Source: Dokdonia sinensis (lineage in GTDB: Bacteria > Bacteroidota > Bacteroidia > Flavobacteriales > Flavobacteriaceae). Taken from it: a stretch of DNA of 64,000 nucleotides. Shown piece after piece: positions 3,343 to 61,978 of this stretch. Numbering within the stretch: position 1 is the stretch's first letter; the number at the start of each line of letters is the position of its first letter. The position numbers were made by a program, and so were the translations under genes. The stretch lies in the NCBI RefSeq assembly GCF_003688895.1, contig NZ_REFV01000013.1:62001-126000 (forward strand), read 5' to 3'. Under the pieces are notes generated by a model that was not told the DNA's origin, made no database searches, and worked only from the letters and a program-made list of their open reading frames with translations.

Positions 3343-3568
3343 CTCTTCTATTTATGGCGAGAGTTAGGTGGCTATTTTCCTAAAAATTAGACTGTTTATG
3401 TAATTACATTTTCTTGCAAATGGAAAGGTGGAGCCGACTAAAATTTTCGCGAAAGCGTAAAAATCAAACTTTTTAACCTTACGAAAACGTTAGCGTTAAT
3501 AACTAATTACGATTTAACACGCTATTTTAAAAGGATAGCGTTTATTTGGATACCCTAATAAAAATACT
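3343..3568. repeat. glgB/GH31 gap with one TTTCGCGAAA palindrome
   Basis: This 226-bp gap separates glgB from the GH31 gene. It holds a copy of the window-wide palindrome (core 3445-3454, extended TTTTCGCGAAAGCG) and otherwise AT-rich sequence. I see no clear terminator or -7 box. The GH31 gene may be transcribed on its own or by read-through from the glg operon. Confidence 0.7.
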
Positions 3569-5971
3569 ATGATTGTAAATACGGAACTGCAACAAAAAGG
3601 CAACCAGTTTCCCAACCGAGTAGTTGACTTTAAGAAAGAAGTTGATACCCTATATTTCACCACCCAAAACGAAATTATTTTAGAACTCACCGTCCTTAGG
3701 GATAGCGTGATTCGCTTTAGATATGCAACAGGCGGTGTTTTTGAACGTGATTTTTCCTATGCGATAGATGAGAATGCCTCTCGAGGTTACAATCATCTTG
3801 AGCTCAAGGATGATAAGGAATACTACCACGTTCATACGTCAAAATTGCATATTCGCATTGAGAAGGAGAGCTTACAGACCGCGATTTATGATACGGATGG
3901 CAACCTGATTAATGAGGATGAAATTGGTTTTCACTACGAGGAGAGCTTCCATTACGGCGGTAATATCGTAAAGATGAGTAAGAAGGCGCAACACGCGGAG
4001 TCTTATTACGGACTGGGCGATAAGCCTATGCACTCTAACTTGAGAGGTAAACGTGTGCAAAATTGGGCTACGGATCAGTACGCTTTCGCGAAAGATCAAG
4101 ACCCTATCTATAAATCTGTTCCATTTTACATCGGGCTTAACAACAAGAAGGCCTACGGTATCTTTTTTGACAATACGTTCAGAACCTATTTTGACTTTTG
4201 TCAAGAACGTATGGGTGTGACCAGTTTTTGGGCACAAGGTGGAGAGATGAATTATTATTTCATCTATGGACCTCAAATGTCTGATGTAGTTACAAGCTAT
4301 ACAAATCTTACTGGAGTTCCAGAATTACCACCTATGTGGGCTTTGGGTTACCAGCAATGTAAATGGAGTTATTTTCCAGAAAGCAATGTAAAAGAAGTTG
4401 CGGCCAAGTTCCGTGAACTTAAAATCCCTTGTGATGGCATCTATCTGGATATAGATTATATGGAGGGTTTCCGTTGTTTTACCTGGAATAAGGAATACTT
4501 TCCAGACCCTAAACGTATGGTTAAGGAGCTGGCGGATGATGGTTTTAAAACTATAGTCATCATTGATCCGGGGATTAAAATAGACAAAGATTATTGGGTG
4601 TATCAAGAAGGGGTCAAAAATGATTACTTCTGTAAACGTGCAGATGGGCCCAATATGAAAGGAAAAGTATGGCCTGGAGAATGTAATTTCCCAGATTATA
4701 CAAATCCTAAAGTTCGCGACTGGTGGGCTGGATTATTTAAAGAGCTTATAAGCGACGTAGGTGTAAAAGGAGTGTGGAATGATATGAACGAGCCTGCAGT
4801 AATGGAGGTTCCAGATAAGACCTTCCCGCCAGACGTGCGCCATAATTATGATGGTGATCCTTGTAGTCACAGGAAAGCACACAATATTTATGGAACGCAA
4901 ATGGCACGGGCGACGTATGAAGGTGTTAAGAAATTTGCCTATCCTAAAAGACCTTTTGTAATCACAAGATCTGCTTATAGTGGAGCGCAACGTTACACTT
5001 CGTCTTGGACGGGAGATAACGTAGCAAGCTGGGAACACCTATGGATCGCAAATATTCAAGTACAACGTATGTGTATCTCAGGAATGAGTTTCACAGGGAC
5101 AGACATCGGTGGTTTTGCAGAGCAACCTACGGGTGAGCTATATGCGCGCTGGATACAGCTTGGTGTTTTTCATCCATTTTGTAGAACGCACTCATCTGGA
5201 CATCACGGAGATCAAGAGCCTTGGGCCTTTGACGAAGGGGTAACAGACATCGCGCGTAAGTTTATAAACTTGCGTTATAGATTACTTCCTTACTTATATA
5301 CAATGTTTTATGAGTATGTAGAGAAGGGCACACCGTTATTGAAGCCACTCGTATATTTTGATCAGGATGATGCACAAACGCACTATCGTACAGATGAATT
5401 TATATTTGGTCATCATATTTTAGTTTGTCCAATTCTGGAGCCAAATGCTAAAGGACGTCGCATGTACGTGCCTAGAGGAAATTGGTACAATTACTGGACA
5501 AAGCAAATGATCGCAGGAGGTAAAGAGCAATGGGTAGATGCAGATATAGATGAAATGCCACTTTTTGTAAAAGAAGGTACCATTCTACCTAAGTATCCTA
5601 TACAACAATATGTGGGAGAGTTAACGATCGAGCAAGTCGAGCTGGAAGTGTATTATGGTCTTGGTAAGAACGCATCAAAACTTTATGAAGATGCCCAGGA
5701 TGGTTATGACTATACAAAGGATCGATATAGCTACCGTACTTTTAAGATGGTAGGACGTGAAAAAGATTGGATCATACAGCAACACAAGCGCGGAGATTTT
5801 ATGACTTCTTACGATACATTTAGAATCCATTTGATCGGACTTCCATTTGATATTAAGGAAATAGAGCTCGATAATGAAGTAGTCTCTTTTGAGGATGTAC
5901 ATTTTGACCCAGTGGCTTGTGCGCTAATCATTAACAAAGATTTCACGGAGTTGCATCTTACGGGAGCTTAA
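3569..5971 (+). CDS. Alpha-glucosidase, glycoside hydrolase family 31
   Basis: Likely hydrolyses alpha-glucosidic bonds of maltodextrins or glycogen-derived oligosaccharides. The 800-residue protein has an N-terminal beta domain, then the GH31 barrel with the nucleophile Asp405 in VWNDMNEP and the acid/base Asp483 in the W-T-G-D-N segment, then GGF and the R-T-H-S-S-G-H-H segment. No signal peptide is visible, so it probably acts in the cytoplasm alongside the glycogen genes upstream. A palindrome copy (core 4084-4093) is read as AFAK in the N-terminal domain before the barrel. Exact substrate linkage cannot be told from sequence. Confidence 0.93.
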   Translation: MIVNTELQQKGNQFPNRVVDFKKEVDTLYFTTQNEIILELTVLRDSVIRFRYATGGVFERDFSYAIDENASRGYNHLELKDDKEYYHVHTSKLHIRIEKESLQTAIYDTDGNLINEDEIGFHYEESFHYGGNIVKMSKKAQHAESYYGLGDKPMHSNLRGKRVQNWATDQYAFAKDQDPIYKSVPFYIGLNNKKAYGIFFDNTFRTYFDFCQERMGVTSFWAQGGEMNYYFIYGPQMSDVVTSYTNLTGVPELPPMWALGYQQCKWSYFPESNVKEVAAKFRELKIPCDGIYLDIDYMEGFRCFTWNKEYFPDPKRMVKELADDGFKTIVIIDPGIKIDKDYWVYQEGVKNDYFCKRADGPNMKGKVWPGECNFPDYTNPKVRDWWAGLFKELISDVGVKGVWNDMNEPAVMEVPDKTFPPDVRHNYDGDPCSHRKAHNIYGTQMARATYEGVKKFAYPKRPFVITRSAYSGAQRYTSSWTGDNVASWEHLWIANIQVQRMCISGMSFTGTDIGGFAEQPTGELYARWIQLGVFHPFCRTHSSGHHGDQEPWAFDEGVTDIARKFINLRYRLLPYLYTMFYEYVEKGTPLLKPLVYFDQDDAQTHYRTDEFIFGHHILVCPILEPNAKGRRMYVPRGNWYNYWTKQMIAGGKEQWVDADIDEMPLFVKEGTILPKYPIQQYVGELTIEQVELEVYYGLGKNASKLYEDAQDGYDYTKDRYSYRTFKMVGREKDWIIQQHKRGDFMTSYDTFRIHLIGLPFDIKEIELDNEVVSFEDVHFDPVACALIINKDFTELHLTGA

Positions 5972-6006
5972 CATTTTCGTAATTTTAGGTAACCTTAAAA
6001 ATCAAG

Positions 6007-8211: not shown

Positions 8212-9581
8212 AGCCATTTTGTAAATCGTTTAAGTATACTGAGCTTGCCTTTGTAAGGTGCATAACGTACAGGGACATCCAGCCACGTCCCCCGCTTAAC
8301 AACTGATTTTGCGTGACTAAAAGTGTAGAAACTCTGAGCCCCGTGGTAACTGCCTACCCCAGAATGACCTACACCGCCAAAGGGTAATCTATCATTTATG
8401 AAGTGAATGAGCGTATCGTTCATCACGCCACCGCCATACGAGAACGCGTTGTTAAACCAATTTTTAAAAGACCGCTTTCGCGAAAAAACATATGCACTCA
8501 GGGGCTTCTCAAAAGAGGTAAGGACATTTTCAATATCCTGCTTACTGTCAAACGTCAAAACGGGAAGAATGGGACCAAAAATTTCTTCTTGCATTACCGC
8601 ATCCTGTAATGTCACATTCTCTAAAATCGTAGGTGCGATATATAAATCGGCTTTGTCCGTATTTCCTCCTTTAAAAACGGAAGCTCCATCCAAAAGTTCC
8701 GAAAGTCTCTCGAAGTTTTTTTCATTAATGATTCTTGCAAAATCAGGCGATACTTTGGGATCTGCGCCATAAGCTCTTGTGATTTCTATATCCAGTGCAG
8801 TAAGAAGCTCTTTTTTCTTTGAAGAATGCACAAGGATATAATCCGGTGCGATACACGTCTGACCAGCATTTACAAATTTCCCCCACACGATACGCCTTGC
8901 CGCCTGCTGGATTTTTGCCGTCTCGTCTATGATGCACGGACTTTTTCCGCCAAGTTCTAATGTCACTGGAGTGAGGTGTTCGGCGGCAGCTTTGTATACA
9001 ATTTTCCCAACAGGAACACTCCCAGTAAAAAAGATATAATCCCAGCGTTGTGCAAGCAATTGTTGCGCAATTTCTTTATCGCCTTGTACCACAGTAATAT
9101 GTCCAGGGTCAAAAACTTCACTTATGATTTTAGCCAATAATTCTGACGTTTTTGGTGTGAGTTCGCTAGGTTTCAGCACCGCTGTATTTCCAGCCACAAT
9201 TGCTCCTATGATAGGCCCAACCGCAAGCTGAAAGGGATAGTTCCACGGGGCGATAATAAGTGTTGTACCGTAAGGTTCGTAATAAATGTAATCGCTACTG
9301 GGGAAATTGAGGAGTGAAGCTTTTACCTTCTTCGGTTGACTCCATTTATACACTTCCTTAATTGCCAGATTGAGTTCTTGGTGTACGATACTTATTTCGG
9401 TAGCTACCGTTTCAAAAGGCGGTTTTTTAAAGCCGGCCGTCAGGGCATCTATAATATGTTGCTCGTGCTTTTTTATGCTTTCGCGAAAGCGTACCAAACA
9501 TTCTTTCCTGTAAGCAATGTCCTTAGTTTGACCTGTTTTAAAAAATGCTTGTTGCCGCTCTAAAATCTTTGGAATATTCAA
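8208..9581 (-). CDS. Aldehyde dehydrogenase, class 3 type
   Basis: Oxidises aldehydes to acids with NAD(P). The 457-residue protein matches class 3 ALDH numbering exactly: general base Glu209 in VTLELGGKSP and nucleophile Cys243 in NAGQTCIAPDY. The length is typical for this soluble or membrane-associated class used for fatty and aromatic aldehydes. Two palindrome copies lie inside: core 9479-9488, read as VRFRESI near residue 33, and core 8476-8485, read as FSRKRSF in the C-terminal third. They are decoded in different frames (RFRES and SRKR), so both coding versions are tolerated in one enzyme. Confidence 0.95.
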   Translation of the reverse strand: MNIPKILERQQAFFKTGQTKDIAYRKECLVRFRESIKKHEQHIIDALTAGFKKPPFETVATEISIVHQELNLAIKEVYKWSQPKKVKASLLNFPSSDYIYYEPYGTTLIIAPWNYPFQLAVGPIIGAIVAGNTAVLKPSELTPKTSELLAKIISEVFDPGHITVVQGDKEIAQQLLAQRWDYIFFTGSVPVGKIVYKAAAEHLTPVTLELGGKSPCIIDETAKIQQAARRIVWGKFVNAGQTCIAPDYILVHSSKKKELLTALDIEITRAYGADPKVSPDFARIINEKNFERLSELLDGASVFKGGNTDKADLYIAPTILENVTLQDAVMQEEIFGPILPVLTFDSKQDIENVLTSFEKPLSAYVFSRKRSFKNWFNNAFSYGGGVMNDTLIHFINDRLPFGGVGHSGVGSYHGAQSFYTFSHAKSVVKRGTWLDVPVRYAPYKGKLSILKRFTKWL

Positions 9582-13677: not shown

Positions 13678-14235
13678 ATGAGTGAGAAAATAAACACATA
13701 CACCGTAACCATCTACACCGAAAATAATATCGGATTGCTTAACCGTATTTCCGCAATTTTTCAACGTCGTAAGATTAATATTGAGAGCCTTTCGGCCTCA
13801 GAGAGTGAGATAGATGACGTCTTTAAATTTACACTCGTGGTAAATATTACAGAGCACCAGATGGAAAAAATAAAAGGGCAAATAGAGCGCCAGGTAGAGG
13901 TGATCAAAGCTTTTTACCACACAGATGAAGAAACCATCTTTACTGAAAGCGGTCTCTTTAAAATCAAATCTGAACTACTTTTTGAAGAGCCACAGATTCA
14001 AAATATCATTAAAGATAGCCACGCACGCATCGTCACCGTAAATCGGGAGTTTTTTGTGTTAGAAAAATCAGGGCGTCGTTCAGAAATTGATTTGGTACAC
14101 CGCGAGCTCAAGCCTTTCGGTATTATGCAATTCACCCGTTCAGGAAGAATTGCGGTAACTAAAACAGAGATGCCTATTTCCACTTTATTACAACAGATAA
14201 AGGATGAGCAGGAGGCTGCTTTCGCGAAAGCGTAA
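13678..14235 (+). CDS. ilvN: Acetolactate synthase, small (regulatory) subunit
   Basis: Binds branched-chain amino acids and controls IlvB. The 185-residue protein starts with an ACT domain (YTVTIYTENNIGLLNRI, residues 8-24, up to about 80) followed by the C-terminal regulatory domain of the long IlvH type. A palindrome copy (core 14220-14229) supplies the last residues, AFAKA, immediately before the TAA stop. The family has no conserved requirement there, so the C-terminus seems to have been extended or replaced by the repeat. Confidence 0.95.
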   Translation: MSEKINTYTVTIYTENNIGLLNRISAIFQRRKINIESLSASESEIDDVFKFTLVVNITEHQMEKIKGQIERQVEVIKAFYHTDEETIFTESGLFKIKSELLFEEPQIQNIIKDSHARIVTVNREFFVLEKSGRRSEIDLVHRELKPFGIMQFTRSGRIAVTKTEMPISTLLQQIKDEQEAAFAKA

Positions 14236-14465: not shown

Positions 14466-15941
14466 ATGAGCAATTACTTCAACACATTACCACTTAGAGA
14501 TCAACTTGCACAACTCGCAAAATGCCGATTTATGGACGCCTCAGAATTTGGCGATGGTATCGACGCAATTAAGGACAAGAAAATCGTCATCGTAGGTTGC
14601 GGGGCGCAGGGACTTAATCAAGGACTCAATATGCGTGATAGCGGTTGTGATATTTCGTACGCACTACGTGAAGGAGCGATTAAGGAAAAACGCCAGTCAT
14701 TTAAAAACGCTTCTGAAAATGGCTTTAATGTGGGTACGTATGAAGAGCTGATTCCAAGTGCAGATTTAGTATTGAACTTGACTCCAGATAAGCAGCATAC
14801 ATCGGTAGTTAAAGCGGTGATGCCGTTAATGAAAAAAGGAGCAACCTTATCTTATTCTCACGGTTTTAATATCGTGGAGGAAGGAATGAAAATACGTGAA
14901 GATCTTACCGTAATTATGGTAGCACCGAAGTGTCCAGGATCTGAGGTAAGAGAAGAGTATAAAAGAGGTTTTGGCGTTCCGACATTGATTGCAGTACATC
15001 CAAATAACGACCCAGAAGGAAAAGGTCTCGCCCAAGCTAAAGCCTATGCCGCAGCTACCGGTGGTCATAGAGCAGGAGTTTTAGAATCCTCATTTGTTGC
15101 TGAGGTGAAAAGTGATTTAATGGGCGAGCAAACCATTCTTTGCGGAGTTTTACAAACGGGATCTATCCTTTGTTTTGACAAAATGGTAGAAAAAGGAATC
15201 GACCCAGCATACGCAGGAAAATTAATTCAGTACGGCTGGGAAACTATTACCGAAGCCTTAAAACACGGCGGCATCACAAATATGATGGACCGTCTGGACA
15301 ATCCATCGAAAATTAAAGCCTTCAATTTAGCAGAAGAATTAAAGGATATTATGCGCCCACTTTTTGAGAAGCATATGGACGATATTATCTCGGGTCATTT
15401 CTCTAAAACAATGATGGAAGATTGGGCAAATGATGATAAAAATCTGCACAAGTGGAGGGCTGAAACTGGAGAAACGGCTTTTGAAAAGCAAACCATCACG
15501 TCTGATGAGATTTCTGAGCAAGAATATTTTGACCACGGCGTTTTGATGGTGGCGATGGTAAAAGCTGGTGTAGAACTTGCTTTTGAAACTATGACTGCCG
15601 CTGGAATTATTGAGGAGAGTGCTTATTACGAGTCACTCCACGAGACGCCACTTATAGCAAATACAATAGCAAGAAAGAAACTATTTGAGATGAACCGTAT
15701 CATTTCTGACACGGCAGAGTATGGATGTTATTTATTTGATCACGCCTGTAAACCTTTATTGACTGACTTTATGAAGTCCGTAGAGACTGATGTTATAGGT
15801 GCCGCTTTCGCGAAAGGTAATGATGTAGATAACCAAGAACTCATCGCCGTAAACGACGCCATACGTAATCATCCTGTAGAAGAAATTGGGGCTACTTTGC
15901 GTAAAGCTATGGTAGCGATGAAGAAGGTAAAGACCGAGTAG
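14466..15941 (+). CDS. ilvC: Ketol-acid reductoisomerase, class II
   Basis: NADPH-dependent isomerisation and reduction of acetolactate or acetohydroxybutyrate. At 491 residues it is the long, class II (E. coli-like) form. The Rossmann motif [11 protein letters not shown] starts at residue 43, and [13 protein letters not shown] and GEQTILCG mark the conserved core. A palindrome copy (core 15806-15815) is read as AAFAKGND in the C-terminal helical domain. It lies between ilvN and ilvA on the same strand. Confidence 0.97.
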
Positions 15942-16103: not shown

Positions 16104-17364
16104 AATAGAGACCAAAACATACATCCCATCCTTAAAATCTATTACTGACGCGGCAAATCGAGTCAAGGAGGTAGCGATTAAAACGCCGTTTATGCGCAGT
16201 TTTACCTACTCTAGTAAATTTGATGCTGAGGTGTTTTTAAAGCGTGAGGATTTGCAACAAGTGCGCAGTTACAAAATCCGTGGGGCATTTAATAAGATGA
16301 GCACGCTTTCTAAAGCCGAAAAAGATAAGGGAATCGTTTGTGCGAGTGCAGGAAACCACGCGCAGGGTGTTGCGTTGTCTTGTGCAAAATTGCAAATTCA
16401 CGGCTCTATTTATATGCCTACCACCACGCCTAAGCAAAAGGTGGAGCAGGTAGAGATGTTTGGCGGCGATTGGGTAACAGTGATTCTAGAAGGTGATCTT
16501 TTTGATGACGCTTTCGCGAAAGCGTCTGAAGTCTGCAACACAGAGGGAAAGATATTTGTACATCCCTTTGATGATGAAAAAATTATCGAAGGGCAGGCTA
16601 CCGTAGGATTGGAAATTTTGACGCAGTCTGAAAAACCTCTCGATTATGTTTTTGTCCCCGTAGGCGGAGGCGGACTCATAGCTGGATTGTCCAGTGTCTT
16701 TCATCATTTATCGCCTAAAACACAAATCATAGGCATTGAACCTGAGGGAGCACCTGCAATGATGCATTCGCTTTCGCAAAAGGAAAACATCACACTCGAC
16801 GAAATAGATAAATTTGTAGATGGCGCCGCAGTACAACGCGTAGGAGACCGCAATTTTGCCATTGTGGAGCAACTCGTAAGCCGTATCGTAACTGTAAACG
16901 AAGGTAAAATTTGCCAGACCATACTAGACCTCTACAACCGTGACGCCATTGTGGCAGAACCTGCAGGAGCAATGACCCTCGCCGTTCTGGATCAATTTGC
17001 AGATGAGATTAAAGGTAAAAACATCGCCTGCATCGTAAGTGGTAGCAACAACGACATCACCCGTACCGCCGAGATTAAGGAGCGAGCTTTGTTATATCAA
17101 GGTTTAAAACACTATTTCATCATAAAATTCCCGCAACGCGCAGGCGCATTAAAAGAATTCGTTGCCGAAATTCTCGGCCCAACAGATGACATCACCTATT
17201 TTGAATATTCTAAAAAGACGAGCAGGGAACAAGGGCCAGCCATTGTAGGTCTAGAAATTAAGTCTCCCGAAGATTTGCAACCGCTTGTAGATCGTATGAT
17301 CGCGCGTAAGTTTTTTGGGGAGTATTTAAATGATAAGCCGGAGTTGTTTCAGTTGTTGGTGTGA
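16099..17364 (+). CDS. ilvA: Threonine ammonia-lyase (threonine deaminase)
   Basis: PLP enzyme producing 2-ketobutyrate for isoleucine synthesis. The PLP lysine is Lys59 in RSYKIRGAF, and a glycine-rich PVGGGGLIAG phosphate-binding loop follows. At 421 residues it has a single C-terminal ACT-like domain (from about 335; FPQRAGALKEFV), like the Bacillus enzyme, not the double domain of E. coli IlvA. A palindrome copy (core 16512-16521) encodes AFAKA in a loop between the two catalytic subdomains. The ATG belongs to the end of a REP-like repeat. Confidence 0.94.
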   Translation: MTIETKTYIPSLKSITDAANRVKEVAIKTPFMRSFTYSSKFDAEVFLKREDLQQVRSYKIRGAFNKMSTLSKAEKDKGIVCASAGNHAQGVALSCAKLQIHGSIYMPTTTPKQKVEQVEMFGGDWVTVILEGDLFDDAFAKASEVCNTEGKIFVHPFDDEKIIEGQATVGLEILTQSEKPLDYVFVPVGGGGLIAGLSSVFHHLSPKTQIIGIEPEGAPAMMHSLSQKENITLDEIDKFVDGAAVQRVGDRNFAIVEQLVSRIVTVNEGKICQTILDLYNRDAIVAEPAGAMTLAVLDQFADEIKGKNIACIVSGSNNDITRTAEIKERALLYQGLKHYFIIKFPQRAGALKEFVAEILGPTDDITYFEYSKKTSREQGPAIVGLEIKSPEDLQPLVDRMIARKFFGEYLNDKPELFQLLV

Positions 17365-18238: not shown

Positions 18239-20539
18239 TTAGTCATTTTCAACAACAAAACCAAAAGACGCATCGCCCACAATCACTTTCCAACTGCCAG
18301 AATGTTTAACTACCTTCAAAGTATCGTTTTTTGGTTTATCAGCATCATAAAATACGGATATTGAAGTGTCTCCCACTTGAACATTCTCCAAACTTCCCGT
18401 TTTCCACGTACTAGGCATCTGGGGATTGATATAAATAGTTTTGCTCGCTCCATCAGGCTGTATGCCAAAAAACTGCTCTACAATAGGAACAGCATATCCA
18501 TAAATATTCCAAGCCTGGGTAATCATTCCGTAATCTGGAGAGACTTCGTACATACTACCAGGTAAAGCGTAGGAAAAACTACGCGTCATTCGTTTTAAAT
18601 AATCCAAAGCTTTGTCAGGATTTCCGTAGTTATTTTCTCCTATAATTTGCACAGCGGTAGGAAGCGTCATCACCGCGCCTGTATAGGAAAACTGCTTACT
18701 GCCTTTAAATGAACCATCATCTGTTCCTGCACTCTCGTCACGATCTATTCCTGTAACAAATACGCCAAAGGGATTTACAAACCGTTCTGCTGTTTGTAAG
18801 GCTTTTTTGGCTTTATCAGGAGGCGCTATTCCCATTTCCATCGGTGTGTTAACCACCCAATTGTGGTGCAATACAAAAGGTCTCGGACGTGACGAAGGAT
18901 TTTTTAGGATGGCTTTTTTTGTTGCTTTCAGTTCGGCAACAGCCCAAGGTTTATTTAAGGTGTCTGCACGAACGATAGCATCTTCTATAAGGTGTAACGC
19001 TTGCTTATCGGTACCGATAAAGTCGGCATAACTCTGGAACTCTTCACTCCAAAATTCGGTGTTTATTTTGTCCTTTAGCGTTTGTGCGGTCTGCGCATAC
19101 TTTCGCGAAAGCGTATCCATACCCAACACCCGAGTAATTTTAGAAGCATCATCAAAAGCTCTTTGCGTATACACCGCGACATCTATCATCTCGCTGTCCA
19201 AGCCGTGTATTTCCATCATTCCGAAACCGTCAGGAAAGCCATTTCCGTCCTTATCTTTTTCGGTCATTAGCCATTCCAGTCCTTTTTTTATGGTAGGGAA
19301 GTAACGTTCTAAAAATTCCCTGTCGCCATTCCAACGATAAGTATTCCAAATAAGCGAAGCAAATTGAGGCGTTTCATTTATGTTTCCCTTATTAAAAACG
19401 GCGCCATTCGTACTCATTTCGTGCAGGATGCGCCCATTACCGTTTATGGCGTTTGACACCGAATCCAGCAGGGCAATCGTGCTATACACCGCATCGGTTT
19501 GCCCGATGGCCATATAGCCCTTGAGCGCATACTCGCTGTCTACCCCAAACCACCACGGGTAATCAGGAATACCCGCTGTGATGCCTCGGCCTATCTCAGG
19601 TACTTCCTGTATGAGCCAGTCTGAGTTGTACTTAAGCCACTCAAAAGCCTGCTCGATTTTCTTGTCGGGAATGGTGAGTTTGGTCTGATTTGCAAGGGTG
19701 GCGTAGCGTTCTTTTTTTGCTTTCGCGAAAGCGTACGAATTCTCGTGAATAGACTCATAAGTAGCCATTGCTTCATCTTGAGAATGATAACTCCCAGCAA
19801 TCACGAACGAAATTGTTTTCGAACCATTTGCAGGAATAGTGATAGGATAAATAAGCTCACCAGTTTGCTGACCATCCAAAATGTACTTTATTTGATTTAA
19901 TGATTTTTGGTTCGCACCAAATACTACAAACCAAGGGTTATTGACATCTCCCGAAACAAATGCATCTATTTCTCTGTTGTAAGTAATGCTATCTTTAGCA
20001 TTAATCATTCCGGTTTCTTCGCCGAGCCAAGTAGGTCTCAAATCAACAATGCCGATAAAATCTAGTTCAAAAGAATTTAATTCATTCGATGTATTATCAA
20101 TCTTAAACTGAATAAAGATACCTTCTTTTCCATCGGGTACAAATTGCCATCTTGTTATATTTAGATTTGCTTCTTCAATTGTATAACTATGCTTGTTGGC
20201 AAACGGATAATTGGTGAATTGTTTTGCTTCATTCAACCCATAGGCTCCACCATCTTTAAGAATACCTACATCAAACCCGTCCATCAACTTGATAGGATGA
20301 TTCCAAATTCCGCCCATTTCGTCCTTAATATGCCAACCGAGCTCAGGAAAACTACCGTCCTGATGTCCTACCATATAGACACGATCGCCAGCGGTGACCA
20401 TTGGGGAGTTGAGGTAATCGGTCTTTCCTGTAATAGAAGGACTATCCTTTAAAAGTTCGGCAATGTTACTTGTATGCGATTCTTGTTTAGTGCAAGAAAT
20501 AAGGATGGCGACGATAAATAATAGGTATAGTGAGCGCAT
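18239..20539 (-). CDS. Six-hairpin glycosidase-like lipoprotein
   Basis: A 766-residue exported protein with lipobox I-L-I-S-C near residue 16. The N-terminal half is beta-rich; the C-terminal half is an (alpha/alpha)6 barrel with PWWFGVDSEYALKGY, MMEIHGLDSEMIDVAVYTQRAF and RPFVLHHNWVVNTPMEMG, resembling amylo-alpha-1,6-glucosidase/GH63-type enzymes. It probably acts on alpha-glucans or related oligosaccharides at the cell surface or in the periplasm. Two palindrome copies lie inside: core 19101-19110 (read LSRKY) and 19721-19730 (read YAFAKAKKERY). The family assignment at GH level is uncertain. Confidence 0.75.
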   Translation of the reverse strand: MRSLYLLFIVAILISCTKQESHTSNIAELLKDSPSITGKTDYLNSPMVTAGDRVYMVGHQDGSFPELGWHIKDEMGGIWNHPIKLMDGFDVGILKDGGAYGLNEAKQFTNYPFANKHSYTIEEANLNITRWQFVPDGKEGIFIQFKIDNTSNELNSFELDFIGIVDLRPTWLGEETGMINAKDSITYNREIDAFVSGDVNNPWFVVFGANQKSLNQIKYILDGQQTGELIYPITIPANGSKTISFVIAGSYHSQDEAMATYESIHENSYAFAKAKKERYATLANQTKLTIPDKKIEQAFEWLKYNSDWLIQEVPEIGRGITAGIPDYPWWFGVDSEYALKGYMAIGQTDAVYSTIALLDSVSNAINGNGRILHEMSTNGAVFNKGNINETPQFASLIWNTYRWNGDREFLERYFPTIKKGLEWLMTEKDKDGNGFPDGFGMMEIHGLDSEMIDVAVYTQRAFDDASKITRVLGMDTLSRKYAQTAQTLKDKINTEFWSEEFQSYADFIGTDKQALHLIEDAIVRADTLNKPWAVAELKATKKAILKNPSSRPRPFVLHHNWVVNTPMEMGIAPPDKAKKALQTAERFVNPFGVFVTGIDRDESAGTDDGSFKGSKQFSYTGAVMTLPTAVQIIGENNYGNPDKALDYLKRMTRSFSYALPGSMYEVSPDYGMITQAWNIYGYAVPIVEQFFGIQPDGASKTIYINPQMPSTWKTGSLENVQVGDTSISVFYDADKPKNDTLKVVKHSGSWKVIVGDASFGFVVEND

Positions 20540-21566: not shown

Positions 21567-21800
21567 TTTAATAATTTTGGTTAGTATGCTTATTTCAGTC
21601 TCATAAAGGTCGGCGTTCTTACGGTTTACCTTCTAAAAGTATTCTTAAATATTTATATTCCATTCGATTGCAGGGTATTCTATGGATATGATAATGAGCG
21701 TAGTGTAAAAATGATAATTTGGTAAAAGTTCGGAGGAGCGCTAAAATTTTCGCGAAAGCGTACATCACATTCATATAAGTTTCTATCTTTATCAAACAAA
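21567..21800. other. Spacer with one palindrome upstream of a small ORF
   Basis: AT-rich spacer between the divergent lipoprotein gene and the arginine locus. It holds a palindrome copy (core 21748-21757, TTTTCGCGAAAGCGTAC) about 45 bases before a candidate 36-codon gene. No terminator is evident. Confidence 0.6.
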
Positions 21801-40424: not shown

Positions 40425-40931
40425 ATGAGACTTAAATACTTAATTATTCCTATGGTTGTAGTGTTTGCTTTGTTCGCTTTCGCGAAAGCGGAACACACGT
40501 CATCATTTCAAGTCCAAACGGCCGAGAACGAGCAAGAAGTCCAGAAAGTTATTGAAACTTTTTTTGAAGGATTTCACAAGCAGGACTCGACTTTAATCAA
40601 AAAAGTGGTACACGAGAATGTGATGATGCAATCTATAGGAAAAGATAAATTAGGGGAGGTTGAGTTGAGCAAGCAAGACTTTGGTACATTTCTTTCCTCT
40701 ATATGTGCCATCCCTGAAACCACTCATTTTGAGGAGCGCATCGCAAGCTACGAAATTAAGATGGATGGAAAAATGGCAAATGTCTGGACGCCATATGCCT
40801 TTTATATTAATGGTAACTTAAGTCATTGTGGTACAAACAGTTTTCAGCTCTTTAAACGCAATGGAGTCTGGAAAATCTTTTATATCGTAGATACTCGCGA
40901 CCGTGAGGGGTGTGGTAAGATGCGAGGCTAA
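40425..40931 (+). CDS. Secreted NTF2-like (SnoaL-type) protein
   Basis: A 168-residue protein with a signal peptide and an NTF2-like fold suggested by [31 protein letters not shown] and the later beta strands. Function unknown; such domains are often enzymes or ligand binders. The palindrome copy (core 40478-40487) forms the end of the signal peptide: [12 protein letters not shown], with A-K-A at the likely cleavage site. The gene abuts the convergent outer-membrane protein gene. Confidence 0.75.
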
Positions 40932-46984: not shown

Positions 46985-47305
46985 CTTTTGTTTAACGAAA
47001 TATTTCTTGGGTAACAACGTAATCTGCAAGATAATGGAAATTGAGAAAGAGATTACAATTGGAGTTTTAATATGTTTCCGCTTTCGCGAAAGCGTAATAA
47101 AAAACTTAAGAATACGCATCGTTTGAACTTTCGAGAAAGCGAAAACAATGACCTCATTTCATATTTTGATATACTTGGTAGTTTCGATACGATTTTAACC
47201 TACGCTATTGCTATGGTTAAAATTAATTAACCATTATCTGTAATTTTTTCGTTTTCGCTTTAGCTTTTCCTAGATAGCTATCGGAGTCGAATTCGATTTC
47301 AATTG

Positions 47306-49303: not shown

Positions 49304-49321
49304 CCGCTTTCGCGAAAGCGA
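49304..49321. repeat. Palindrome copy 9 bases after the dnaK stop
   Basis: Core 49308-49317, extended CCGCTTTCGCGAAAGCGAAAA. It is followed by a second hairpin, ACCCCGAC/GTCGGGGT (49339-49358). Confidence 0.9.
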
Positions 49322-49424: not shown

Positions 49425-49442
49425 GCGCTTTCGCGAAAGCGT
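49425..49442. repeat. Palindrome copy between the dnaK terminator and the convergent esterase gene
   Basis: Core 49429-49438, extended GCGCTTTCGCGAAAGCGTAC. It overlaps the tail of the terminator. Confidence 0.9.
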
Positions 49443-51755: not shown

Positions 51756-52873
51756 TGGACGCTCCAGAGGTTTTTGAACATATTGCAACTCATTTTGACG
51801 AGGCACTTCCCTTTGTGGCGTATCGCAAACCCAATGAGAAGGACCTTAAAGTTTTTCTGCAAGAAGATGACACTTTAAACACCACGACAGATTATGATGA
51901 GAGTGGTTTTGTGTTTGCTCCTTTTGATACCGCTTTCGCGGAAGCTATTTTAATCCCGGATACAACTGCTATAACCGTTTCGCTTTCAGAGTTGAGTTTT
52001 GAAAATGGCGAGCCTCATCATACCCACTCAAATCCGGCCGACCAACAGCGCCATATTGCCCTTGTAAAAAATGGGATTTCATATATAAAGAAGAGTGGGG
52101 TGAAGAAGATAGTGCTTTCGCGAAAGCAAACTATTAATCACGCTTATGAGCACCCAATTGCCATTTTTAAGAGATTATTACACGCGTATCCCACTGCTTT
52201 TGCATACTGCTGGTATCATCCAAAAGTTGGACTATGGCTGGGCGCAACACCAGAAACCTTACTTTCTATAAGCAATCGAAAGTTTCATACGATGGCGCTC
52301 GCGGGAACACAACCATACAAGGATACGTTGAGCGTATCTTGGGGAACTAAAGAAATACAAGAACAGCAATTTGTCACAGATGCTATTGTCCAAAATCTTA
52401 AACCTATTCTTAGTGATATTAAGGTCACCCCAGCGCAAACTCATCGCGCGGGAAGTCTTTTGCACTTAAAAACAGATATTTCCGCTCCATTTAAAAGCAC
52501 TGAAACTTCGCTCAAAACAATTATAGAAGCACTTCATCCTACACCAGCTGTGTGTGGACTACCTCGAAGCGAGGCAAAAGATTTTATACTTAAAAATGAA
52601 GTTTATGAGCGTAACTATTACACAGGATTTTTAGGAGAACTCAATCTCCAAGTAACGCGCAAGCGTTCAACTCATCGTCGTAACATGGAAAACCTCGCCT
52701 ATGGGAGTATACAGAAGGAAAGCCATCTCTTTGTAAATCTGCGCTGCATGGAGATAGATGCAAAAGGTGCACAAATCTATGTAGGAGGAGGAATAACAGA
52801 ACAAAGTAATCCAGAAGCAGAGTGGCAGGAAACGGTAGACAAGCTCAGTACAATGCTACGCGTTTTAGGATAA
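51755..52873 (+). CDS. menF: Isochorismate synthase
   Basis: Chorismate-binding enzyme that starts menaquinone synthesis. The 372-residue protein has GATPETLLS, the HPTPAVCGLPRSEA region and FVNLRCMEI and GGGITEQSNPEAEW at the end, as in MenF/EntC. Two palindromes occur: a decayed copy at 51931-51947 (read AFAEAI) and a perfect one (core 52116-52125, read LSRKQT). It is coupled to the thioesterase gene upstream. Confidence 0.93.
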   Translation: MDAPEVFEHIATHFDEALPFVAYRKPNEKDLKVFLQEDDTLNTTTDYDESGFVFAPFDTAFAEAILIPDTTAITVSLSELSFENGEPHHTHSNPADQQRHIALVKNGISYIKKSGVKKIVLSRKQTINHAYEHPIAIFKRLLHAYPTAFAYCWYHPKVGLWLGATPETLLSISNRKFHTMALAGTQPYKDTLSVSWGTKEIQEQQFVTDAIVQNLKPILSDIKVTPAQTHRAGSLLHLKTDISAPFKSTETSLKTIIEALHPTPAVCGLPRSEAKDFILKNEVYERNYYTGFLGELNLQVTRKRSTHRRNMENLAYGSIQKESHLFVNLRCMEIDAKGAQIYVGGGITEQSNPEAEWQETVDKLSTMLRVLG

Positions 52874-52925: not shown

Positions 52926-54644
52926 ATGAAACACTCTAAAATACCCGTTGCCCAGTCCATCGTAAGCCTATGTCTCAGTAAAGGTATAGACCGAGTGGTA
53001 ATTTCACCAGGATCTCGAAATGCTCCATTAACTATTGAGTTTACAAAAAATGACTCTATACAGTCATACAGTATTGTAGATGAGCGTTGTGCAGCTTTTT
53101 TTGCACTCGGAATGGCGCAACAATTGCGTAAACCTGTGGCTATTGTTTGTACCTCTGGAAGCGCACTTCTAAATTACTATCCCGCAATCGCCGAAGCTTT
53201 TTACAGCGATATCCCACTAGTGGTTTTAAGTGCAGACAGACCTGTGGAACGCATTGACATAGGGGACGGTCAAACCATTAGACAGAAAAATGTCTTCGAA
53301 AATCACATCCTCTTTTCGGCCAACTTATATTCTGAAGTTGTTCCTAGCGATGTGGTTGTTGATAAAAGAGTGGCGACCAAATTACAGGAGAGCAGGCGAC
53401 ACAATGAGCAAGAAATAAATAAAGCACTAAATACTGCTATTGAGGACTGTGGTCCCGTTCATATAAATGTTCCATTTTATGAGCCACTGTATGAAATGAC
53501 AGATGAGACTGCACCGGCTCCCATACATATTTTTCCTAAAATTTCTGAAAAAACACTTACTGACTCTGAGCTTGCTTCCTATCAAAATACTTGGAACAAT
53601 GCCAGAAAGAAGATTGTCCTCGTGGGAGTTTTGGCTCCAGATAGTTTGGAGCAACAGTATATAAACATACTTGCTGCAGACCCGAGCGTGATTGTATTTA
53701 CAGAAACAACTTCAAATTTACATCACGACAATTTCTTTACGCGTATTGATAATATCGTAGGTGCGCTGGACGATGATGGCTTTAGAGCTTTGCAACCTGA
53801 GGTACTACTGACTTTTGGAGGAATGGTAATTTCTAAGAAAATTAAAAACTTCTTACGTAATTACCAACCACAGCATCATTGGCACGTGGATCCCAAAAAA
53901 GCCTACGATACGTATTTCTGTCTCAATAGGCATTTTGAGGTTTCGCCCAACACATTTTTTAAAGCTTTTTTCTCTGGAACTAAAAAGGTAAAGAGTGACT
54001 TTCAAGAAGACTGGTTGGCTATCCGGACCTACCGCGATGTATTACATAATAAGTACATAAGCGAGATGCCTTGGTGTGACTTTAAGGCATTTGACGCTGT
54101 ACTTTCGGCGATTCCAGATGGCACTTTGTTACAAGTGGGTAATAGCAGTGCCATACGATATGCACAACTTTTTGACCTCAATAAAACCTTGCCTGTGTAT
54201 TGTAATCGTGGGACTAGCGGTATTGACGGCAGTACAAGCACAGCAATAGGAGCGGCAATAGCACAAGATAAGCCTACGACCCTTATCACCGGTGAGCTCA
54301 GTTTTCTATACGACAGTAATGCGCTGTGGAACAGCCATATCCCCAAAGATTTTAAGATTATCGTGATTAATAATAGTGGCGGAGGCATCTTCCGCATCTT
54401 GCCTAATCGGGATAAGGACACCGATACCTTTGACGAATACTTTGAAACAACGCATAACCTTTCGGCCGTGCAATTATGTGCGATGTATGGATTTAATTAC
54501 CTGAAAGCAGAAAATGAGGAGGAGTGCGCTTTCGCGAAAGCGGCACTTTACAAATCAAACGAGCAACCCACCTTGTTAGAGATTTTTACGCCACGCACGG
54601 TAAATGACGCCGTATTGCTGGAGTACTTTGAATTTATCAAATAA
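52926..54644 (+). CDS. menD: SEPHCHC synthase (2-succinyl-5-enolpyruvyl-6-hydroxy-3-cyclohexene-1-carboxylate synthase)
   Basis: ThDP enzyme that adds the succinyl semialdehyde unit from 2-oxoglutarate to isochorismate. The 572-residue protein shows SPGSRNAPL near the N-terminus, VDERCAAFFALGMA with the catalytic Glu, CTSGSALLNYYPAIAEA and the ThDP segment GELSFLYDSNALWN...INNSGGGIF. A palindrome copy (core 54530-54539) is read CAFAKAALYKS near the C-terminus. It follows menF after 52 bp. Confidence 0.96.
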   Translation: MKHSKIPVAQSIVSLCLSKGIDRVVISPGSRNAPLTIEFTKNDSIQSYSIVDERCAAFFALGMAQQLRKPVAIVCTSGSALLNYYPAIAEAFYSDIPLVVLSADRPVERIDIGDGQTIRQKNVFENHILFSANLYSEVVPSDVVVDKRVATKLQESRRHNEQEINKALNTAIEDCGPVHINVPFYEPLYEMTDETAPAPIHIFPKISEKTLTDSELASYQNTWNNARKKIVLVGVLAPDSLEQQYINILAADPSVIVFTETTSNLHHDNFFTRIDNIVGALDDDGFRALQPEVLLTFGGMVISKKIKNFLRNYQPQHHWHVDPKKAYDTYFCLNRHFEVSPNTFFKAFFSGTKKVKSDFQEDWLAIRTYRDVLHNKYISEMPWCDFKAFDAVLSAIPDGTLLQVGNSSAIRYAQLFDLNKTLPVYCNRGTSGIDGSTSTAIGAAIAQDKPTTLITGELSFLYDSNALWNSHIPKDFKIIVINNSGGGIFRILPNRDKDTDTFDEYFETTHNLSAVQLCAMYGFNYLKAENEEECAFAKAALYKSNEQPTLLEIFTPRTVNDAVLLEYFEFIK

Positions 54645-57603: not shown

Positions 57604-58737
57604 TTAAAAATTTATTTTTTTTGATGTATCCTTGGCAAGACCATTCTTATGCAGGAGCACAGAAATCGCCTTTAGTTTTATGTAAGGAACACTCATGTAG
57701 ACATAGCCATCATATTTGGTACGCCCAGGGTCTGTACCCCAAGAATTTTTTACCTTATAATAGATATTTCCGTTCTGGTCTTTTGCTTTTCCCGTAATAT
57801 GCATCAGGTGATCATCTGTAGTATCGTAATTCTCAAATGCGTCTTGACGATATTGCTGGCTAATCTCCCTTTCAGGTTCTGGGCCTAAGACTGCAATCTT
57901 TTTGTTCTCATCATTTTCAGGAATTACAGCAACTCCGTGTTTTGAAGAAAATGTAGGCTCGCTCACATCGCAATCTAAAGTTACGGTAAACCCTTTTTTA
58001 AGAGCGTTGTCAATATTGTCAACAAATTCTTCTATCGGCACATTATACATCATTCCGTTTGAAAAGTTATCTGGAATGTTCAAGATAAATGATTCATAAA
58101 AAGGAGCGTGCGTAAAGGAAGTAAGTGTGATATAGTCACTAGCTTCTATTTTCATTGTCGAGGCAAACTCGTGAGGAGTGTAAGATTTGCCTTCATAGGT
58201 AAATTGAGTTAAGTTCTTTCCCAGATAGGTGTCGAGTACACTACTCACGGCTGTTTTCCATTTCTTGCTCAGCTGGCGACCGGGGTTTGTGATGTAAGCA
58301 TCTAGCATTGCTTTTACAACCGCGACCATTTCGGCGTGATTGTGTTTATTTTCGGTAGGCGCAAGTCCCGTGTAGGCGTCCACAGGAACGAGCCCGTGTG
58401 TTTTTACACTATTGATTACATCGTGGGCGAGACCGCCTTCAGAGAACTGTGCTTTGCCCTGGCGCATCACATAATTTTCGGCTTTAATGGGATAGGTGTT
58501 CCTTACGGTATACATTTCAGACAGGTCTACACTTTTACCTGTAAGCCTTATGATTTCGCTTTCAAGAAATGATGAGGTAGAGAAACTCCAACACGTTCCT
58601 GTGACTCCTTGACTGATTACCGGGGTGGTTTCTAGGTTTATAATATCGGTAAAAATATAAGGAGCGGTGGTTTCTTGTGCGTAGTCCGCTTTCGCGAAAG
58701 CAAAAACAGCAACCATACAAAGCAGTAATCTTTTCAT
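57604..58737 (-). CDS. Secreted C1-family (papain-like) cysteine peptidase
   Basis: Related to bleomycin hydrolase/aminopeptidase C. The 377-residue protein has Cys49 in GTCWSFSTSSFLESE, His313 in HLMHITG and Asn331 in VKNSWGTDPG as catalytic residues. The signal peptide MKRLLLCMVAVFAFAKADYAQ contains a palindrome copy (core 58690-58699, read AFAKA), so the repeat forms the end of the signal. Unlike cytoplasmic PepC it would be exported. Diverges from menB. Confidence 0.88.
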   Translation of the reverse strand: MKRLLLCMVAVFAFAKADYAQETTAPYIFTDIINLETTPVISQGVTGTCWSFSTSSFLESEIIRLTGKSVDLSEMYTVRNTYPIKAENYVMRQGKAQFSEGGLAHDVINSVKTHGLVPVDAYTGLAPTENKHNHAEMVAVVKAMLDAYITNPGRQLSKKWKTAVSSVLDTYLGKNLTQFTYEGKSYTPHEFASTMKIEASDYITLTSFTHAPFYESFILNIPDNFSNGMMYNVPIEEFVDNIDNALKKGFTVTLDCDVSEPTFSSKHGVAVIPENDENKKIAVLGPEPEREISQQYRQDAFENYDTTDDHLMHITGKAKDQNGNIYYKVKNSWGTDPGRTKYDGYVYMSVPYIKLKAISVLLHKNGLAKDTSKKINF

Positions 58738-58766: not shown

Positions 58767-58782
58767 CTAAAAATAGCATTTT

Positions 58783-59622: not shown

Positions 59623-60545
59623 TTCAAGTTTTTAATAACCTTATTAAGTGATTGAGTAAATATTTCGGCTCCGCTCGAGTTGAGGTGGTTGTGGTTTGCA
59701 AAATCCTGAAGCTCATAACCTTCTGCGTTTTCTTTATCTAGTATAGTAAAATCATATTCCTTTTGTAAAGTATTTAAAATACTATCCCTGCGCGCTACCA
59801 TTTTAGGGTTTCGAGCCTTGAGATGTTTTTGCGTTACCGGTGTCAAAGCGACGACTATCCGGATGTCTTTTTGAGAGCAGAATTCTAAAATTTGTTTTAG
59901 GTGTTTTAAATTCTGAAACCTATAGGATTCATTCTCATAGTTGCGAATGCTCAATGGTATATTCTGGATTGCGATGGGTTGGTAGTCCGCTTTCGCGAAA
60001 GCGGAACCCGCTTCACTACGAGCGTATCCAAACATATTATAATCAGGCCGTATTTTGTCAATATAATATCTCTCTATCTGGTCTGTATAATAACTAGGAT
60101 TGCTTAAAAACAATAATTTGTCCTTGAAATAGGTGCTTCTATCCCAATTATTCACACCGTAATAATAAAAATACCCACGGTTTTTCCAATAGTTAGTAGG
60201 GTTAGGACGGGTATCAAGATGCGCAAAAGTCATAGGAATCACTACTGTAGTTAACCGCGGAAGGCGAGGAGATAGTTGTGAGAGAAGTGCGAAGTCGGTA
60301 CGATAATCTTGATGACCAGAGGCAAGATTTATTGCAGACGCATCTAGATATTCTGGATTTACGGCAGATTGATTTTGGGATGCTCCGAGCACTAAAACTT
60401 CTATCAAGTCTTCTTGTTCATTTAAATAGTTGCTAATAACACGCTGACTGTTTTTAATATCACGGGTCAGATATTCTATACCCGTATAGATAAGCACAAC
60501 TGGCACTAAAAACAATAGACAATATGAGACGTACTTTTTAATCAT
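59619..60545 (-). CDS. SGNH-like exported protein paired with the MBOAT gene
   Basis: A 308-residue protein with an N-terminal membrane anchor (YCLLFLVPVVLIYTGI) and SGNH/AlgX-like residues: Ser56 in VLGASQNQSAV and His287 in HNHLNSSGAEIF. Such proteins act with MBOAT proteins to O-acylate extracellular polysaccharides. A palindrome copy (core 59991-60000, extended CCGCTTTCGCGAAAGCGG) is read SAFAKADY in a middle loop. Its start overlaps the stop of the MBOAT gene. Confidence 0.75.
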   Translation of the reverse strand: MIKKYVSYCLLFLVPVVLIYTGIEYLTRDIKNSQRVISNYLNEQEDLIEVLVLGASQNQSAVNPEYLDASAINLASGHQDYRTDFALLSQLSPRLPRLTTVVIPMTFAHLDTRPNPTNYWKNRGYFYYYGVNNWDRSTYFKDKLLFLSNPSYYTDQIERYYIDKIRPDYNMFGYARSEAGSAFAKADYQPIAIQNIPLSIRNYENESYRFQNLKHLKQILEFCSQKDIRIVVALTPVTQKHLKARNPKMVARRDSILNTLQKEYDFTILDKENAEGYELQDFANHNHLNSSGAEIFTQSLNKVIKNLN

Positions 60546-61978
60546 TAAAATTGAAAGTAAATGAATTCTTCCTGCGGTCCACCGTAGCGTATGATGAGAA
60601 ATACTAACCCATAATATACTAACCAGCGCACGGGTTTTTTATAATGAGATTCTAGTTGCTGGAGCGGGTGATCCTTTGTTCTGGTCAAATATTCTGCAAG
60701 CAGTAAAATTCCTAGGACTCCTATTTTCCAGCCTATCACAAGATCAAAACCATCTATATCCCACGAAGTAAACATCCTCATTATCATTTCCCAAGCCGAT
60801 GCAATATCTGCCGATCTAAAAAATATCATCCCTATAATAAGCATCAAAATAAAGTGAGTACGACCTATTATCGGGTTCTTAAATAAAAAGCTACGTACAT
60901 TTTTCTTTGTCCCGTTTACTTTTATAGGAATGGATTCAAACCAAAGTATAAGCGCCTGACTAATTCCAAAAAGCAAAAACGTCCAGTTTGCCCCGTGCCA
61001 GAAACCCATAAGTGTCATTGTGAGCATAAGCGCGTTAAAACGGTTAATCTGTGTACGTTTTTTATTTTGTAAAAATGGAACGTAAACATAATCCCTAAAC
61101 CATTTAGACAGCGTGATGTGCCATCTATCCCAGAAACTTGAGACATTCTTAACGAGATAGGGAAGTTTAAAATTAATACTCAACTCAAAGCCGAACATTT
61201 TTGCCGTCCCGCGCGCTATATCCGTATATCCAGAAAAATCACAATACATCTGGAAGAAAAACAGCAACGCACCATAAATGATTTCTGGACTTGAGAAGTT
61301 TTCTGGATGAGCATAAATGGCAAAGACAGCAACGGCGAGATTATCTGCCACGACCATCTTTTTAAAGAGCCCCCATAATATAAGGCGCAATCCTTCGGTG
61401 GCATATTGATAGTTAAACTTTCGTCTGTTTGCAAACTGTGGGAGCAACCTAGAAGCTCTTTCGATGGGCCCCGCCACGAGTTGCGGGAAGAAGCTTACAA
61501 AACATAAAAATTGAAGCAAATTGTCTGAAGCAGAAATTTTTCCTTTATACACATCTACCGTATAACTTATGGTCTGGAAGGTATAGAAGCTCAACCCAAC
61601 AGGAACCAGAATATTAAGTGTGGTAAAAGTGTTCTCCGGAATATCGAAAAGCATTTTTAAATTGTCCAGAAAGAAATTATAATATTTGAAAATAAACAGT
61701 ACGCCCAGGTTCCAAATCAGGCTGGTATATAATATGTAGGTCGCTTGTTTATCTTTTTTACGCTTTCGCGAAAGCGTAATTAATCTGCCCGCACCATAAT
61801 CTACAATAGAGCTCAAGAAAATCAATATAAGAAACCTCCAGTCCCAAACACCATAAAAGAAATAGCTCGCTCCGAGAATGAGCATATTTTGCGCTCGCAA
61901 TCGTGATGGTCCTATGGCCCAATAGAGCAAAAAGACGATCGGGAGAAACAGGCCAAAATCAAAGGAGTTAAATAACAA
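60545..61978 (-). CDS. MBOAT-family O-acyltransferase
   Basis: An inner-membrane O-acyltransferase (AlgI/DltB-like) with about 11 helices and the conserved His in MGFWHGANWTFLLFG. I place the start at a TTG at 61978 (MLFNSFDFGLFLPIVFLLYW, 477 residues), the usual family start; an earlier TTG at 62014 lies in the upstream terminator and would add 12 residues. A palindrome copy (61758-61779, the longest in the window at 22 bp) is read TLSRKRKK in a cytoplasmic loop. Together with the SGNH gene it probably modifies an exopolysaccharide or cell-wall glycan. Confidence 0.88.
   Translation of the reverse strand: MLFNSFDFGLFLPIVFLLYWAIGPSRLRAQNMLILGASYFFYGVWDWRFLILIFLSSIVDYGAGRLITLSRKRKKDKQATYILYTSLIWNLGVLFIFKYYNFFLDNLKMLFDIPENTFTTLNILVPVGLSFYTFQTISYTVDVYKGKISASDNLLQFLCFVSFFPQLVAGPIERASRLLPQFANRRKFNYQYATEGLRLILWGLFKKMVVADNLAVAVFAIYAHPENFSSPEIIYGALLFFFQMYCDFSGYTDIARGTAKMFGFELSINFKLPYLVKNVSSFWDRWHITLSKWFRDYVYVPFLQNKKRTQINRFNALMLTMTLMGFWHGANWTFLLFGISQALILWFESIPIKVNGTKKNVRSFLFKNPIIGRTHFILMLIIGMIFFRSADIASAWEMIMRMFTSWDIDGFDLVIGWKIGVLGILLLAEYLTRTKDHPLQQLESHYKKPVRWLVYYGLVFLIIRYGGPQEEFIYFQF

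Follow-up and report, generated by a model that had tools for sequence, protein, structure and literature searches.

A window of 64,000 nt from Dokdonia sinensis (Flavobacteriaceae; assembly GCF_003688895.1, contig NZ_REFV01000013.1, positions 62,001 to 126,000), by which the whole stretch analysed is meant, carries 31 copies of the 10-bp palindromic core TTTCGCGAAA, which looks like a genome-wide signal read by the cell. All 31 cores had been listed in an earlier note on this DNA, and each proved to be exact and correctly placed (Table 1); 100 dinucleotide shuffles of the window gave a mean of 0.19 cores and at most 2. We consider it very probable that the palindrome is a selected, distance-dependent signal of the highly iterated palindrome (HIP) class. 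The even spacing of the sites, their lopsided flanks and their copies in phages go beyond what the earlier note had described, and no description of TTTCGCGAAA was found in the titles or abstract openings listed from the open-licence literature, searched with the motif strings, with Dokdonia, Nonlabens or Flavobacteria plus palindrome, and with HIP.

Extension to the 16-mer CGCTTTCGCGAAAGCG, estimated earlier for about 14 copies, was confirmed for 14 of the 31, as was a single 22-bp palindrome at 61764; 20-bp palindromes occur at 16512 and 59991. Genome-wide, 630 exact 16-mers and 917 12-mers (CTTTCGCGAAAG) were counted, against 0 and 2 for the reversed sequence, which served as the control for 16-mer, 12-mer and mismatch counts, so that the genome count proposed in the earlier note lies far above expectation. 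The density of one core per 2 kb given there applies to the window but exceeds the average: 400 kb of contig C1 contained 117 cores, at a mean spacing of 3,427 bp. The consensus beyond the core, derived from 148 sites of the same genome, is (T)(A/C)CGC-TTTCGCGAAA-GCG(T/G)(A), in which information drops outwards, and most copies one change away from the 16-mer deviate at its outermost base. Sites at distances of 0 to 4 from the 16-mer were bimodally distributed in 464 kb (87, 26, 27, 32 and 41), the reversed sequence giving 0, 0, 0, 7 and 45. Within 400 kb, the 8-mer TTCGCGAA is nearly confined to the 10-mer (121 against 117 occurrences), and TCGCGA is about as frequent outside the motif as its composition predicts (45 of its 162 occurrences lie there), which together indicate that the unit is the 10-mer plus an arm. 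Two GCG arms were present at 224 of 443 sites in 14 genomes and one GCG arm with one arm not starting GC at 86, whilst at least one GC(G) arm was found at 442, neither arm starting GC at the one other site. Ten decayed copies had also been proposed, six of which are credible (27298, 51931, 16769, 47126, 50488 and 63973, at Hamming distances of 1-3 to the 16-mer); the other four (12362, 24974, 26964 and 46123, at distances of 4-5) are doubtful, since at distance 4 the reversed control is equally common.

The sites are spread with unusual regularity. In the window, C1 and genome G003 taken together, pairs less than 1 kb apart numbered 18 where 58 were expected, pairs at 2-4 kb 102 where 55 were expected, and gaps above 8 kb 4 where 13 were expected, with coefficients of variation (CVs) of spacing of 0.56-0.64 against about 0.97 for random placement. 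The median distance from degraded to intact copies was 1,484 bp in C1 and 2,121 bp in G003, compared with about 914 and 966 for random points. Around the chromosome of G003, 33 stretches of 20 kb each held 4-11 sites (dispersion 0.52), and no origin-terminus gradient was seen amongst them. When 12-mers only were considered, pairs below 1 kb were again scarce in G789 of genus g11 (5 against 18.7) and in G001 (6 against 23.6), although the CVs were 0.81 and 0.77, respectively, and the longest gaps reached 20 kb. Even spacing of this kind implies a selection or drive that is sensitive to how far away the next site lies, a sensitivity that mutation bias by itself lacks. Inspection by eye of two long gaps without sites in C1, with no family search, offered no explanation.

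Placement was assessed with a simple open reading frame (ORF) caller, and as G003 and G006 are orthologous the counts are partly redundant. Intergenic DNA held 0.97-1.39 sites per kb and coding DNA 0.20, a 5-7-fold difference; coding sites fell in the frames AFAK (99), LSRK (49) and RFRE (33), and 33 of 181 lay within the first 60 bp of genes, an excess that may stem from crude ORF starts. A terminator or operator role was rejected, given similar densities whether the gap lay between tandem (1.39 per kb), convergent (1.14 per kb) or divergent genes (0.97 per kb).

The DNA beside the sites is lopsided between strands. On either strand, read 5' to 3' towards a site, the fraction of C drops from about 0.20 to 0.10 where the DNA is coding and from about 0.16 to 0.07 where it is intergenic; T rises, as does G in coding DNA, and the effect has faded by 30-40 bp. 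The G-C skew towards the site was 0.43, compared with -0.05 to 0.06 for 13 other palindromes and 0.02 for TCGCGA outside the motif, and site-less orthologues had C at 0.177 and G at 0.191 against 0.150 and 0.223 at sites. Flank positions change much like those farther away (7.3-7.9% against 6.8%); the flank bases are thus no better conserved, which argues for a composition rather than a longer motif. A composition that differs between strands but is not tied to particular positions suggests exposure of single strands beside the sites. At one-armed sites the skew was stronger at the good arm (P 0.03-0.04, larger set), and all five strictly one-armed pairs less than 500 bp apart were arranged CGC-core ... 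core-GCG, with arms outward, an arrangement that fits, in small numbers, a pair of one-way sites standing in for a single two-way palindrome.

Sites are born and lost, as the earlier note had supposed, but slowly, being kept far above matched 10-mers. Genomes G003 and G006 (92.5% identity over 234 kb) have 67 of 74 sites in common, whereas 57% of equal-GC control 10-mers, and 64% of the 276 with two CpGs, were unchanged. Of the seven differences, five were single substitutions, C/T or G/A, at CpGs of the core, one was a C/A change and one an unalignable stretch, and comparison of these loci, as the earlier note had proposed, yielded no clean insertion. At identity bins of 90, 85, 80, 75, 70 and 65, sites were kept in 92%, 91%, 88%, 55%, 52% and 20% of cases and control 10-mers in 49%, 39%, 20%, 8%, 6% and 3%, the comparisons across distant pairs being redundant among related pairs. 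The 275 ungapped non-conserved comparisons were bimodal, with 1-2 mismatches in 62 and at least 3 in 213, so births often needed several changes; a gap lay near the site in 157 of 432 non-conserved comparisons at greater divergence, and some births possibly involved indels. In unaligned, accessory DNA sites were somewhat scarcer, with 5 in 26 kb of G003 and of G006 (0.19 against 0.30-0.32 per kb), numbers too small to carry weight. Comparison of six genes with 26 HIP-negative loci showed site peptides standing in place of variable residues, without gaps in leuC, argG and the gene at 22008 and with length differences in argF, argE and leuD; HIP-negative orthologues mostly differ at the sites, where shared residues would have pointed to ordinary conserved codons. 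The palindrome thus often spreads by substitution rather than insertion, and it behaves neither like a mobile insert nor like neutral debris.

Hyper-abundance, which the earlier note had proposed to look for in related genera, was found in three: Dokdonia (12-mer counts of 383-937 in 18 of 18 genomes), g11 (297-879 in 23 of 23) and g191 (445 in the single genome sampled). Only 6 of 397 genomes in a sample of the family were high, all within these genera, the remaining 391 having at most 21 12-mers, and in an overlapping sample of the phylum (395 genomes) the D. sinensis genome alone was high, with at most 11 in the others. A DnaK tree of 21 genomes did not settle whether the three positive genera form one clade. 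Amongst 80 named loci from an argF search, the core was present in six, belonging to four Dokdonia, one Nonlabens (5 cores in 21 kb) and one Cytophagaceae metagenome-assembled genome (MAG; one core), whilst the fifth named Dokdonia locus, a 5-kb fragment, had none. Several motif-poor genomes contain clustered copies (G353:C5:46470-79676, G029:C18:74148-174380 and G095:C1:2826986-2837723), and pairs 933 bp apart recur in motif-poor G118, G231, G104 and G177; the copies look as though a single fragment of a motif-rich donor had been passed between genera.

Among IMG/VR contigs, 30 also carried the 16-mer, on 41 stretches. One of them, 3300040781_000495, is a phage judged by its proteins, nine of ten matching a PHROG, including terminase, portal, major head and sheath, and 7 cores lie in the 27.9 kb examined; its terminase is closest (54.5% identical) to that of Winogradskyella phage Peternella_1, which bears a Mu-type transposase and contains no core. 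Ten proteins from ten other viral contigs gave eight PHROG matches, five of them with a hallmark function. The flank skew at 42 sites, on 20 of the 41 viral stretches, was 0.23. These phage copies suggest that DNA inside such cells profits from bearing the palindrome.

Candidate reader genes were sought in 17 motif-rich and 16 motif-poor genomes. A methylation site, raised in the earlier note, found no support in three Pfam methylase families, covering cytosine, N6/N4 and Dam-type enzymes: PF00145 (C5 methylase) was present in 7 of 17 rich and 8 of 16 poor genomes, PF01555 above cut-off in 2 and 5, and PF02086 in 10 and 5, so that none tracked the motif, and in G003, G006, G014 and G258 not one of them reached the cut-off; type I and other families were not searched. 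A second ParB (PF02195) found no support as the reader, more than one copy occurring in 2 of 17 rich and 3 of 16 poor genomes, and no parS-type palindrome was present in the four stretches searched. The AddAB-like nuclease family PF12705 was present in all 33 genomes, HIP-positive and HIP-negative, and was thereby rejected as a discriminating gene.

As to what the signal does, our tentative preference is for a self-DNA or recombination signal, Chi-like and bidirectional, over an uptake or chromosome-organising site, although we regard it as some way short of probable. Such a mechanism, itself put forward with the same reserve, is drawn from the palindrome, its arms, the spacing, the flanks, the one-armed pairs and the phage copies, and would explain most of these at once; that an AddAB-like nuclease family occurs in all 33 genomes searched also speaks for it. 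A sequence-specific factor would read the duplex palindrome, each arm serving approach from one side, and the strand running 5' to 3' into the site would be exposed as a single strand over about 30 nt, as DNA ends are processed or during recombination loading, so constraining flank composition. Selection would act on the distance to the nearest site, with repulsion below 1 kb and long gaps filled, and phages of these hosts would gain by carrying the signal. A broader and somewhat more doubtful proposal is that palindromic bidirectional signals of this type tile the chromosome every few kilobases, constrain about 30 nt of the incoming strand on both sides, are read by a reader of a novel type and have been adopted by phages, with HIP1 of cyanobacteria perhaps a second instance rather than a by-product of methylation.

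Several observations weigh against the Chi-like proposal. We know of no Chi this long or palindromic, and the perfect palindromic core looks like the site of a dimeric duplex-binding protein, not a sequence read in single strands. No reader protein was found among the families tested in the 17 rich and 16 poor genomes, and the presence of the AddAB-like family in both groups leaves the restriction to three genera unexplained. One-armed sites showed no orientation bias with replichore (small numbers), pairs of them at 573 and 639 bp had the opposite order, and in a first, smaller set the coupling of arm and flank reached only P 0.066. Amongst the viruses, two phages of a Nonlabens-type host, whose own genome was not seen, had no core, and seven viral contigs with G+C above 0.5 had a single core each; some phage contigs approach the core density of the host, but all were picked by the 16-mer, which biases their density upward. 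Each of the GC-rich contigs (L087, L091, L107, L108, L119, L120 and L123) holds one exact 16-mer, unlike the Dokdonia-type phages, and this is unexpected by chance.

Other explanations account for parts of these data. Were the palindrome a DNA-uptake (self-recognition) sequence, a competence receptor would prefer DNA bearing it and recombined alleles would spread it, in keeping with an abundance of the same order, occurrence in both coding and intergenic DNA, weakly constrained codons, births by substitution and conserved positions, and Haemophilus uptake sequences are evenly spaced according to Karlin et al., as cited in PMC1939737; however, that paper states that uptake sequences are non-palindromic and less even than a compaction signal would be, and phage copies offer no obvious uptake benefit, for which reasons we regard this as rather unlikely. 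A binding site needed every few kilobases by a dimeric protein of the nucleoid, or one that organises the chromosome, would suit the perfect core, its two arms (at least one of them almost always present) and the even tiling, but there is no gradient of the parS or matS kind in the stretches of the one chromosome surveyed, an extra ParB-domain protein does not track the motif, position-free compositional flanks are not the usual need of a duplex-binding protein, and phages are given no clear reason to carry the palindrome; its chances likewise seem low.

An origin from the joint action of a cognate methyltransferase and methylation-dependent mismatch repair, the sites being a by-product as in the model of Elhai for cyanobacteria (PMC4390886), appears improbable. 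In HIP1, likewise an iterated palindrome, deviations fall mostly on the outer bases, and this model also saturates with distance; yet the methylase families searched do not track the motif, a site requires the 10-bp core together with an arm, beyond the usual length of a methylase site, and TCGCGA is not enriched outside the motif. It is very unlikely that a mutational or repair bias without function merely generates and restores the sequence: five of the seven G003/G006 differences are single C/T or G/A changes at CpGs of the core, where C-favouring repair would restore sites, but a bias predicts neither even spacing, lopsided flanks nor multi-base births, and the spacing had already spoken against it. 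The tiny mobile element suggested in the earlier note is scarcely credible. The copies are many, and pairs with outward arms might represent an insert that duplicated 10 bp of its target, but none of the seven differences is a clean insertion, nothing is common beyond the arms, and peptides in leuC, argG and the gene at 22008 replace residues gaplessly.

Table 1. Copies of the palindrome in the window, with strand given as '.'
Feature	Position	Strand	Structure	Context
core	3445..3454	.	right arm GCG only	between called genes
core	4084..4093	.	left arm CGC only	coding, AFAK frame
core	8476..8485	.	left arm only	coding
core	9479..9488	.	14-bp palindrome	coding, RFRE frame
core	14220..14229	.	14-bp palindrome	3' end of ORF 13678-14235
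core	15806..15815	.	left arm only	coding (ORF 14466-15941)
core	16512..16521	.	20-bp palindrome	coding
core	19101..19110	.	right arm only	coding, LSRK frame
core	19721..19730	.	14-bp palindrome	coding
core	21748..21757	.	right arm only	between called genes
core	22306..22315	.	18-bp palindrome	coding
core	23339..23348	.	14-bp palindrome	coding (argG-like)
core	27907..27916	.	left arm only	argF-like coding, inside insertion missing from compared orthologues
core	29127..29136	.	right side GCA only	coding (argE-like)
core	31485..31494	.	16-bp palindrome	between called genes
core	32884..32893	.	18-bp palindrome	coding (leuD-like)
core	33966..33975	.	16-bp palindrome	coding (leuC-like)
core	36016..36025	.	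16-bp palindrome	between called genes
core	38760..38769	.	14-bp palindrome	coding
core	39528..39537	.	right side GCA only	between called genes
core	40478..40487	.	16-bp palindrome	coding
core	42382..42391	.	right arm only	coding, RFRE frame
core	43605..43614	.	16-bp palindrome	coding
core	47082..47091	.	16-bp palindrome	near called ORF start
core	49308..49317	.	16-bp palindrome	between called genes, downstream of dnaK
core	49429..49438	.	16-bp palindrome	between called genes, 121 bp from site 49308
core	52116..52125	.	16-bp palindrome with GCA ends	coding
core	54530..54539	.	16-bp palindrome	coding
core	58690..58699	.	14-bp palindrome	coding
core	59991..60000	.	20-bp palindrome	coding
core	61764..61773	.	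22-bp palindrome	in called ORF
degraded copy	27298..27313	.	one mismatch vs 16-mer	
degraded copy	51931..51946	.	two mismatches vs 16-mer	

Within the window, genes for ilv, arg and leu biosynthesis are apparently close together at 9960-35965, to judge from protein starts and from the argF, argG, argE, leuC and leuD comparisons; no Rfam family (gathering thresholds) and no tRNA were found within the window. A repeat-like string, CTGAGC...GTCGAAG, adjoins the palindrome in argF of the window (27907-27950), and a string of this type replaces the palindrome in leuD of one Dokdonia MAG (L007, opposite L005:16646). Other sequences recur in orthologous loci of further genera. In twelve Pontibacter loci (L041, L043, L047, L058, L059, L061, L063, L065, L069 and L081-L083; 251 kb pooled), AACTATAGTT occurs 18 times where 0.29 is expected, and CAGGTATAGC or its complement 44 times where 0.48 is expected, perhaps another iterated element, though the loci are orthologous and copies may be shared by descent. 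Four Rufibacter loci, also orthologous (L075, L046, L068 and L078; 84 kb pooled), contain AAACCTGTGA 15 times against 0.15 expected.

Known systems resemble the palindrome in different respects. The sites parS, Noc and matS are palindromic and serve dimeric proteins, and the TTTC..GAAA halves resemble those of parS and Noc, but the Dokdonia palindrome has hundreds of copies, no observed gradient and a spacer of 2 rather than 4 bases. Unlike repetitive extragenic palindromic (REP) elements and miniature inverted-repeat transposable elements (MITEs), it showed no clean insertions at empty sites in the seven differences. To our knowledge, DNA uptake sequences, which promote the uptake of DNA from the same species, are not known in Flavobacteriaceae; those of Haemophilus and Neisseria are similar in abundance, in occupying coding and intergenic DNA and in conservation, but differ in being non-palindromic and less even (PMC1939737).

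The likeness to Chi lies in a similar density, a connection with self-DNA and the importance of distance. Chi and the preference of RecA involve a G/T-rich strand next to the site, as here, whilst Chi is short and not palindromic, in contrast to the 10-bp palindromic core plus arm of Dokdonia. Chi, which weakens the action of an end-processing nuclease, is also directional and replication-biased, whereas one-armed Dokdonia sites show no bias, in small numbers. Escherichia coli has 1008 copies of Chi, according to a table in PMC1939737. Should the Dokdonia signal prove Chi-like, it would be the first palindromic Chi known to us.

The comparison with HIP1 made in the earlier note was borne out, both being one palindrome in hundreds of copies, limited to few genera and often born by substitution, and the palindrome is here classed as HIP1-like, with a new sequence, in another phylum and lacking, as far as tested, the methylase link of HIP1. 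Births of HIP1 are reportedly by substitution, going by the title of Robinson et al. 1997. The sequence of HIP1, GCGATCGC, is absent from the window and occurs once in 400 kb of C1. HIP1 and the alternate HIPs described in Elhai 2015 (PMC4390886) are likewise single over-represented palindromes of few genera with deviations at the outer bases, and a cognate methylase is treated there as general for HIPs, not as their definition. The Dokdonia palindrome is longer and different in sequence, occurs about once per 3 kb in the stretches surveyed rather than about once per 1 kb, has no cognate methylase in the three families and has symmetric lopsided flanks, cyanobacterial flanks and spacing not having been compared. 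For about three decades HIP1 has lacked an explanation, the best model linking it to methylases; for the palindrome described here, which is iterated but unrelated and belongs to a different phylum, no link to three methylase families was found, and its mechanism must explain both distance-dependent spacing and strand-lopsided flanks, either of which narrows the candidate functions. As Dokdonia has cultured species, the reader of this counterpart to HIP1 can be sought directly.

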